A DNA stretch of 64,000 nucleotides. Source: Faecalibacillus intestinalis (GTDB lineage Bacteria; Bacillota_I; Bacilli_A; Erysipelotrichales; Coprobacillaceae). The position numbers and the translations under genes are program-made. Positions within the stretch are counted from its first letter, which is position 1. Each line of letters starts with the position of its first letter. Where the stretch lies: assembly GCF_003024685.1 (NCBI RefSeq), contig NZ_PYLQ01000001.1, forward strand, positions 62,001-126,000, in the 5' to 3' direction. The notes beneath the pieces are model-generated. The model was not told the DNA's origin and made no database searches. It was given only the letters and a program-made list of their open reading frames with translations. This document shows, piece by piece, positions 10,040 through 12,574 of the stretch.

Positions 10040-10105
10040 AGTCCAATTTGTTCTAAAATCATAGAGTAGATTGTAAATAATATACACTGATAAAGAGGTG
10101 ATTAA

Positions 10106-10789
10106 ATGAATATTTTTATTGGAGAAAATAATTTAAAAGATTATGTTTTTTTAAAATCGATTATTGAAAAATGGGGTATAGAAAAACAACAAGAAATCTA
10201 TTTTCATTGGTATAAACAGCTTTATTATCAATTACCAAAATGTTTAAAAAACTGTGATCTTGTATTTTTAGAATTAGATATGAAACATATCAATGGTTTT
10301 GAATTTGCAAAGATCTTAAGAAAAAAGGATTTATCAATACCGATTGTTTTTCAAACAAAAAATACACATTATGGGATAGCAAGTTATCAAGTACAAGCGA
10401 TGCACTACTTATTAAAGCCGCTTGATCAACAAGAAATATATAAAATACTTGATTGCGTTTTATTACATCAACATTCTAAGACATTTATTTATCAGTTTAA
10501 AAAAGAAGTTCACAAAATACCTTATGAAGACATTATTTATATAGAAGCTTATCAACACCATGTTATGATTCATCAAAATGATATGACAAAAAGAAATTAT
10601 CTCAGTTTAAAAGAAATAGCTTTACAATTAGATGATTCTTTTTGTCGTTGTCATCGAAGCTATATTGTTAATTTAAAATATGTTGAGAGAATAGAAGGAA
10701 TGAATTGTATCACTAAAAATAAACAAGTTATTCCTATTTCTAAGAAATACAAAAATGATTTTATTGAAAAAATCGTGAGACAAATGTGA
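10106..10789 (+). CDS. LytTR-family response regulator (orphan)
   Basis: A 227-residue regulator with a receiver-like domain (1-115) and a C-terminal LytTR DNA-binding domain (about 125-225: PYEDIIYIEAYQHHVMIH, SFCRCHRSYIVNLKYV). The receiver keeps a possible phospho-acceptor Asp58 (LELDM), Thr84 and Lys104 (LLKPLD). The N-terminal acidic pair, normally CDD, is GEN with only Glu7, so metal binding and phosphorylation may be altered. No histidine kinase is adjacent. An array of six 11-bp repeats starts at its last codons and leads into comFA. By analogy with ComE (a LytTR competence regulator), control of the comF genes is plausible but unproven. Confidence 0.9.
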   Translation: MNIFIGENNLKDYVFLKSIIEKWGIEKQQEIYFHWYKQLYYQLPKCLKNCDLVFLELDMKHINGFEFAKILRKKDLSIPIVFQTKNTHYGIASYQVQAMHYLLKPLDQQEIYKILDCVLLHQHSKTFIYQFKKEVHKIPYEDIIYIEAYQHHVMIHQNDMTKRNYLSLKEIALQLDDSFCRCHRSYIVNLKYVERIEGMNCITKNKQVIPISKKYKNDFIEKIVRQM

Positions 10790-10842
10790 AACAAATTTGA
10801 GACAAAAATGAGACAAATTTGAAACAAATTCGAGACGAATTA
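10777..10842. repeat. six tandem 11-bp repeats, consensus GARACAAATTT
   Basis: Six head-to-tail 11-base units start at 10777, 10788, 10799, 10810, 10821 and 10832. Five conserved positions (G1, A2, A4, C5, A7) are invariant, and most units read GAGACAAATTT or GAAACAAATTT. The array overlaps the last codons of the LytTR gene and ends about 39 bases before the comFA start. The 11-bp pitch is about one helical turn, which places each unit on the same DNA face, as expected for cooperative protein binding. Confidence 0.9.
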
Positions 10843-10880
10843 TTTTGTAAAATGTATTAAAATAGATGTAGGTGAAGAAG

Positions 10881-11996
10881 ATGAAATGTTCGAGATGTCA
10901 AAATGAAGATGTTCAATATTTTTTTGAAAACAATGGGCGTATTTATTGTAGAAAATGTATTGCTTTTTCTACAAAGACAGTTAACTTAAAATCTGTTAAA
11001 AATGAAAAGAAAATATACTATCATTTAAATTATTCATTAAACTTAGAACAAGAAAGAACTTCAAGATTATTGATAGAAAGATATCAAAATCATCAAAATT
11101 CAGTATTAAAAGCAGTAACAGGAGCAGGTAAGACGGAAATGATTTATGGTGTCATTGAATATGCATTGAATTTAGGACATCATGTTTGTTTGACGATGCC
11201 AAGAAAAGAATTGGTTATAGAATTAGCAAAGAGAATTCAAAAACAATTTTTTAATATTCAGCCCATTCTTGTTTATGGAGGACATACAGAGTGTTTAGAA
11301 GGACAATTTATTATTTGTACAACACATCAGCTGTATCGGTATCCACGAATGTTTGATTTATTGATTTTAGATGAGTATGATGCTTTTCCATATCGTGATA
11401 ATGAAGTTTTGGAAAATATATTAATGAATAGTATAAAGGGAAATTATGTGTTTATGTCTGCAACGATTGAAAGTGGAGATGTACAAGTCTTACAAAGGTT
11501 TCATCATCAACCATTACCAATTCCTACTTGTAAGGTAATGGGAAACTTTATGATGTTGTGTCATCTTGTTTATCAATTAAAAAAGTATCAAAAAGATAAA
11601 AAACCGGTATTTCTTTTTGTACCACGTATTGAAATGACAAGACAAGTACAAAAATTTCTTAAATTCTTTTCTATTAAAAGTCACTGTGCTACATCAAAAG
11701 AAAAAAATATTCATCAATCATTAGAAATGATTAAATCCCATGAAATAGATGTTATTGTATGTACAACAGTTTTAGAAAGAGGAATGACTGTTGAAAATGT
11801 ACAAGTTATTATTTTACATGGTGAACATCCCCTTTTTGATAAAGAAACACTTATTCAAATAGCAGGGCGAACAGGGCGAAAAGTACCCTATACAAATGGA
11901 GATATTATCATTTATACAAATAGACAAACGAAGGCTATTAAAGAATGTATCAAGGATCTTCAACAAAGCAATGCCTTATCTGCCATAAAGAGTTAA
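10881..11996 (+). CDS. comFA: ComFA-like DNA translocation ATPase/helicase
   Basis: DEAD-box type ATPase that helps pull single-stranded DNA through the membrane in natural transformation. The 371-residue protein opens with a four-cysteine zinc finger (Cys3, Cys6, Cys23, Cys26), as in ComFA. It then has Walker A AVTGAGKTE (78-86), the Walker B/DEAD box LDEYD, SATIES and the C-terminal RecA-like motif QIAGRTGR. It is shorter than the Bacillus protein (about 460). An in-frame GTG at 10872 sits inside the SD AGGTGA; the ATG at 10881 is chosen. It overlaps comFC by 52 bases. Regulation may run through the 11-bp repeat array just upstream. Confidence 0.93.
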   Translation: MKCSRCQNEDVQYFFENNGRIYCRKCIAFSTKTVNLKSVKNEKKIYYHLNYSLNLEQERTSRLLIERYQNHQNSVLKAVTGAGKTEMIYGVIEYALNLGHHVCLTMPRKELVIELAKRIQKQFFNIQPILVYGGHTECLEGQFIICTTHQLYRYPRMFDLLILDEYDAFPYRDNEVLENILMNSIKGNYVFMSATIESGDVQVLQRFHHQPLPIPTCKVMGNFMMLCHLVYQLKKYQKDKKPVFLFVPRIEMTRQVQKFLKFFSIKSHCATSKEKNIHQSLEMIKSHEIDVIVCTTVLERGMTVENVQVIILHGEHPLFDKETLIQIAGRTGRKVPYTNGDIIIYTNRQTKAIKECIKDLQQSNALSAIKS

Positions 11997-12574
11997 ATCA
12001 ACAACAAGATCTTTTTCACTTGGTGAATAATTCTTCTCTTTGTTTAAGCTGTATAAGAAAATTTAAAATAATAAATAGTGATATAAGGATTCAAGGATAT
12101 CATGTCAAGGTTTTATATGAATACAATGATTTTTTTAGACAACTCCTTTTTCAATATAAAGCATTAGATGATTATGCTTTAAAAGATTGTTTTATAGAAT
12201 CATTTCAAGAATTAAAAAGGACCTACAAAAATTATATCATTGTTGTTATTCCTAGTAGTCAAAAAGATAATAAAAGACGTGGCTTTTGTCCTAATGTTGA
12301 AATTGTTAAGACATTTTCTCAACATATTTTTACAGGTTTGTATAAAAAAGAAGACTACAAACAGACAAAACAAAAAGATCGAAGCCAAGTAAAGAAAATA
12401 TTATCTATTAAAGAGGGAAATCTTCTTTATAAGAAGAATGTTTTAATATTTGATGATGTGATGACTTCATCAAATACTTTACAAGCAGCATTTCAGCAAG
12501 TAGAAAAATATCACCCTAAACAAATAAAAGCATTAGTATTGGCTTGCCCTCATATTGATTATTTTAAAAAATAA
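11945..12574 (+). CDS. comFC: ComFC-like phosphoribosyltransferase-fold competence protein
   Basis: A 209-residue ComF/GntX-type protein. The N-terminus has a zinc-binding CLICHKEL...CLSCIRKF (two CxxC pairs); the C-terminal half is a type I phosphoribosyltransferase domain with VVIPSS, KRRGFCPN and the PRPP loop VLIFDDVMTSSNT. ComFC is required for transformation in other species through an incompletely understood role in DNA uptake or recombination. No later start codon precedes the first zinc motif, so the 52-base overlap with comFA in another frame appears real and suggests translational coupling. Confidence 0.92.
   Translation: MYQGSSTKQCLICHKELNQQQDLFHLVNNSSLCLSCIRKFKIINSDIRIQGYHVKVLYEYNDFFRQLLFQYKALDDYALKDCFIESFQELKRTYKNYIIVVIPSSQKDNKRRGFCPNVEIVKTFSQHIFTGLYKKEDYKQTKQKDRSQVKKILSIKEGNLLYKKNVLIFDDVMTSSNTLQAAFQQVEKYHPKQIKALVLACPHIDYFKK

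Follow-up and report, generated by a model that had tools for sequence, protein, structure and literature searches.

What is the role of a run of near-identical 11-bp repeats lying next to the competence gene comFA of Faecalibacillus intestinalis, and which protein reads it? The locus is part of a 64-kb stretch of DNA, referred to here as the window. A first-pass annotation had proposed that the product of the neighbouring LytTR regulator gene binds the repeats and thereby switches on comFA-comFC. Our analysis of the window, of its genome and of related genomes points elsewhere: the array would be the operator of a class II activator, and its most likely binder, with a probability of roughly 0.6, would be a response regulator of the OmpR/PhoB family, not the LytTR protein.

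The repeat array at comFA

Upstream of comFA, the forward strand carries six tandem 11-bp units without indels (10776-10841, Table 1), which read, in order, TGAGACAAATG, TGAAACAAATT, TGAGACAAAAA, TGAGACAAATT, TGAAACAAATT and CGAGACGAATT. This is the top-scoring tandem repeat of the window, and its identity at a lag of 11 (44/55) is the maximum found anywhere in the 64 kb, while in 60 Markov-1 simulations of the window, which served as the null, the lag-11 maximum averaged 30.7 and peaked at 34. The array is thus confirmed as real and far above chance, in agreement with the six in-register repeats first described; the register given then, GARACAAATTT from 10777, designates the same array displaced by one base. 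The array had also been placed between the LytTR gene and comFA. The neighbours are right, but unit 1 falls within the LytTR ORF, whose stop codon is the TGA of unit 2 (10787-10789); the first two units overlap the 3' end of that gene. The reported distance of about 39 bases to the comFA start is accurate, as the ATG is 39 bp from 10842; the comFA ORF itself opens at a GTG at 10872.

Table 1. Features of the comFA locus (window coordinates) and further genes preceded by the operator in the same genome
Feature	Position	Strand	Remark
Receiver + LytTR regulator gene	10106..10789	+	3' end overlaps array units 1-2
Operator array units (six)	starts 10776, 10787, 10798, 10809, 10820, 10831	+	consensus TGARACAAATT
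Promoter-proximal core pair	units 5 and 6 of the comFA array	+	unit 6 overlaps the -35 region
Spacer, 16 bp	10842..10857	+	identical in 13/13 arrays of this genome and shared by most of the family's comFA promoters
Predicted -10 hexamer TAAAAT of comFA	10858..10863	+	in fixed register with TATAAT-like hexamers of other promoters
comFA-like helicase gene (DEAD/helicase)	10881..11996	+	presumed regulated; ATG 10881 aligns with orthologues
comFC-like phosphoribosyltransferase gene (ComF family)	11945..12574	+	downstream, presumed same operon as comFA
Target at L039			ruvA-ruvB-comEA-comEC-holA
Target at L031			rlmB, then SigH-like sigma gene
Target at L032			DUF4250-ilvA
Target at L038			hisS-aspS
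Rpn/YhgA-like genes or remnants			L034 by PF04754; L033, L036, L037, L040, L041 by likeness; L035 by similar leader only
Target at L042			promoter between hpf and radical-SAM gene

Position relative to the promoter

Pattern matching for two adjacent units picked out arrays at about 13 separate places in the 2.79-Mb genome that contains the window (G000), with between two and six units in each. Targets were read from the pattern matches and from sequence stretches, with operon membership inferred from gene order; few mismatches were allowed in such searches, so weaker sites will have been missed. The 13 arrays were located without requiring a -10 element, and in all of them a TATAAT-like hexamer begins 16 bp past the last unit. 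Offset 16 provides the unique best -10 hexamer in ten arrays and ties with another offset in two, and in the remaining one (L037) a better hexamer is also present at offset 11. By this spacing the last unit occupies about -39 to -29. An activator operator that covers the -35 is the class II layout, and the 16-bp distance suggests that the last unit replaces the -35 element, as such an operator does.

We collected 35 promoters from four genomes (G000, G001, G003 and G004), three of which look spurious, leaving about 32 credible ones. Within this set a score of 5/6 or better is reached by the last unit in 100% of the promoters, by the unit before it in 91% and by the third in 49%, and rarely by units further upstream; judged by these figures, two tandem 11-bp units, TGARAC-N5-TGARAC, form the core operator. 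TG precedes the -10 in about half of the collected promoters. Most promoters with the operator carry two or three units, and six are peculiar to the comFA promoter of G000: at comFA, G001 has three units, G003 and G004 have two, and G002 and G005 have a pair spaced 22 bp apart. With a core of two units, and six found only here, the sharp threshold that six in-phase sites were suggested to give is speculation. A SigH-type -10 within the last unit (GACGAATTA) was also considered and rejected, as its G is not conserved in G003 and G004.

Reuse of the operator in the genome and the family

Three of the transcription units with the operator speak for a competence regulon, namely comFA-FC, ruvAB-comEA-comEC and rlmB with the SigH-like gene, and no array was seen at comGABC or the other T2SSE/pilus ATPase loci examined. 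The first-pass annotation had called for a genome-wide search upstream of other com genes and had named an absence of the motif there among the grounds for abandoning its proposal; the motif at the ruvAB-comEA-comEC promoter removes that objection. The hisS, ilvA and metK targets have no apparent connection with competence, and phosphate genes were not present among the targets examined.

Genomes of the same genus carry the operator again at comFA, ruvA, rlmB-sigH-like, DUF4250-ilvA, hisS and Rpn genes. At comFA it is present in most of the family of the window genome (f1), mostly with the 16-bp spacing and, for the majority, with a shuffle P <= 0.03; four f1 genomes (G008, G014, G019 and G020) show no convincing copy there. 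In the sister family f2 it was not seen at comFA, nor was it found in the ruvA promoters. In the comFA promoters of G002, G005, G010, G026 and G034, two units 22 bp apart stand out clearly, and the unit between them is weak. Both G009 and G017 have the operator at comFA and also at ruvA, where the spacer measures 15 bp. It recurs in G017 at HAD-DUF4250-ilvA, a target in common with G000, and upstream of metK, and in G009 downstream of nfu, the place of metK in relatives.

Some of these sites have features of their own. In G017 (L363:1490-1700; the G009 counterpart is L366:1490-1590) the operator is followed by a leader and then by metK, and by eye this leader is possibly a SAM-type riboswitch. 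At L042 (5380-5435, minus strand), as at L323 and L332, the operator-promoter is conserved; at L042 it lies at the 3' end of the radical-SAM gene and runs antisense through it, toward an ABC exporter of two genes that lies roughly 1 kb away. A terminator-like hairpin comes directly after it, which makes a short RNA possible. At L035:332-4105, a pilus-like operon (GspF-like and pilin-like proteins, PilT-like ATPase) converges on the operator-driven transcript, and the stretch read shows no separate operator for it.

Candidate regulators

Both the geometry of the repeats and their distribution make an OmpR/PhoB-type regulator a better candidate than the LytTR protein. The repeats are head-to-tail hexamers or heptamers with an 11-bp period at about 32 credible promoters, and by position (the fixed 16-bp spacing) they overlap the -35, from which we infer activation. 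Three orthologous groups of OmpR-type regulators have a member, by reciprocal best hits, in each of the six f1 genomes tested (G000, G003, G009, G017, G022 and G024), all of them bearing the motif; such universal presence is not specific and is weak evidence for any single regulator. In G000 the three are C24:114366, C34:83245 and C50:6272, each of them a candidate. The first may be nominated: across f1 it shares 71-81% identity with its counterpart in G017 and has a nearly invariant recognition helix, whereas the helix is a different one in f2, where the nearest relative is only about 46% identical.

Known members of the family recognize similar sites. WalR/VicR (YycF) binds TGTWAH-N5-TGTWAH, refined as TGTWAHA-N4-TGTWAHA (PMC4168254), and the operator described here, TGARACA-N4-TGARACA, shares with it the hexamer-N5-hexamer form, the 11-bp period and the A at position 7. 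In contrast, the third base here is A and not T, there are up to six units, the targets include DNA-uptake and recombination genes, and for the cognate regulator there are only candidates. In addition, VicR accepts half-sites that are set one helical turn further apart (PMC4168254), a tolerance by which the 22-bp-spaced comFA variants would fit an OmpR-type binder. Similarly, the PHO boxes of PhoB/PhoP are 11-nt direct-repeat units, variable in number and bound head-to-tail by proteins that contact sigma (PMC4415409), although their unit sequence and targets differ. By analogy, the closest functional precedent is CovR on comR in salivarius streptococci, where an OmpR-family regulator acts at a competence promoter that has direct repeats 5 nt apart (PMC8725580); however, CovR represses comR, whereas here the structural com genes would be activated.

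It is rather unlikely that the operator belongs to another kind of tandem-repeat binder, such as a RemA-like LytTR-fold ring, a MerR-like multimer of the BldC type or a one-component activator. RemA and BldC do bind direct-repeat arrays as multimers (PMC8481266, PMC5859096), which would suit arrays of 2 to 6 units, but the 7-bp repeats of RemA sites are AT-rich and weakly conserved and, with gaps of 3 bp, have a period of 10, as opposed to the conserved 11-bp units found here.

LytTR regulators such as ComE control competence in other bacteria. Activation of comFA and the rest of the regulon by the adjacent LytTR protein is nevertheless quite unlikely, and this protein is probably not the binder. 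At least four of the five genomes that have the gene preserve the order coaD-LytTR-comFA, even though their LytTR proteins are only 38-53% identical, and the 22-bp-spaced comFA pairs (G002 and G005, also G010, G026 and G034) would suit a LytTR dimer too. However, the gene accompanies comFA in G000, G001, G002, G004 and G005 only, a linkage confined to the genus, whereas the operator is family-wide. G003, of the same genus and 97% complete, lacks an orthologue at comFA, and none was found elsewhere in its genome, which nevertheless retains eight arrays or more. In G009 and G017, which carry the operator at comFA and at other shared targets, there is no LytTR domain (PF04397). Since these three genomes are 96-97% complete, a missing LytTR gene could sit in an assembly gap, but with three absences together gaps are an unlikely cause.

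The geometry also argues against LytTR binding. LytTR sites are 9-bp repeats separated by gaps of 11-13 bp and lie mostly about 10 bp upstream of the -35 (PMC6193735). The core here has no 21-22 bp period, being an 11-bp tandem in G000, G003 and G004, and its last unit is on the -35 instead of a short way upstream. The resemblance to the operators of ComE, AgrA and HdrR is that direct repeats precede activator-dependent competence or bacteriocin promoters and that a LytTR gene adjoins the array, in five genomes in this case; the difference is that their 9-bp repeats are about 12 bp apart upstream of the -35 (PMC6193735). Thus, the original assignment of the array to the LytTR protein is not upheld. 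What survives of its proposed switch is a putative transcription-factor array at the comFA-comFC promoter, with the LytTR protein probably not the switch.

The LytTR proteins have peculiarities of their own. By alignment, residue 56 (window 10271-10273) is Glu at the usual phospho-Asp position in G000 and G004, and these proteins are possibly phosphorylation-independent; the receivers of G001, G002 and G005 keep the phospho-accepting Asp. An element of about 17 nt, approximately GACCAATTTGTTCTAAA, stands at window 10040-10058. It is conserved roughly 50-70 bp ahead of the LytTR gene in 5/5 genomes that have this gene at comFA (also L044, L045, L046 and L047), and the element could be the protein's own control site.

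Two further explanations fare worse. Binding by Spo0A is very improbable: the reverse complement of the units, TTTGTYTCA, partly resembles the 0A box, and Spo0A is present in G000, G003 and G004, but G009, G017, G022 and G024 have the comFA operator and no Spo0A, while G041 has Spo0A and no comFA operator, a distribution that led us to reject it. The idea of a non-functional tandem repeat produced by slippage, which could draw on the variable comFA unit number between species (6, 3 or 2), can be discarded almost entirely, being contradicted by the fixed 16-bp register to the -10, the 13 promoters and the conservation at orthologous promoters of divergent species.

A model for the regulon

The reading that we prefer, an operator for an OmpR/PhoB-type activator, can be put in mechanistic terms. 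The TGARAC-N5 units would overlap the -35 of a predicted sigma-A promoter with a good -10 and no clear -35 element; a protein bound there would thus recruit the polymerase to comFA-comFC. The candidate regulator would bind head-to-tail, one monomer per 11-bp unit. Such operators, usually of two or three units, would mark a regulon comprising comFA-FC, comEA-comEC behind ruvAB, the SigH-like sigma gene behind rlmB, the Rpn genes and a few metabolic operons, and the four extra comFA units in the species of G000 may confer higher occupancy or affinity. It is tempting to extend this, tentatively and at less than even odds, to the whole family: one ancestral OmpR-type regulator might directly command DNA uptake, Holliday-junction processing, a SigH-like sigma factor and the Rpn (phage-defence/recombination) nucleases through such operators, with the copy number of the units (2 to 6) setting the promoter response, in a competence circuit not reliant on ComK, ComR or ComE.

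A tandem response-regulator operator is a known kind of element. In the literature searched (subscription literature was outside its scope), we found no description of this motif and regulon in family f1, nor of competence regulation in that family. A precise, conserved operator provides both a regulon list and a direct route to the regulator, which in turn would show in what circumstances DNA may be taken up by these common gut bacteria. Published work connects Rpn proteins with RecA-independent horizontal transfer (PMC5350276) and with phage defence (PMC10327210). With com and Rpn genes under a shared operator, DNA uptake would be linked to nucleases of defence or recombination.

The Rpn genes (YhgA-like, PF04754/DUF4351) merit a separate remark. 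A base-paired leader was suspected by eye at these genes, and folding of one case (z = -1.1) gave it no support. They are multicopy, each copy with the operator (L033, L034, L036, L037, L040 and L041; L324 and L326-L329), and several copies look broken in G000, while G004 has full-length ones.
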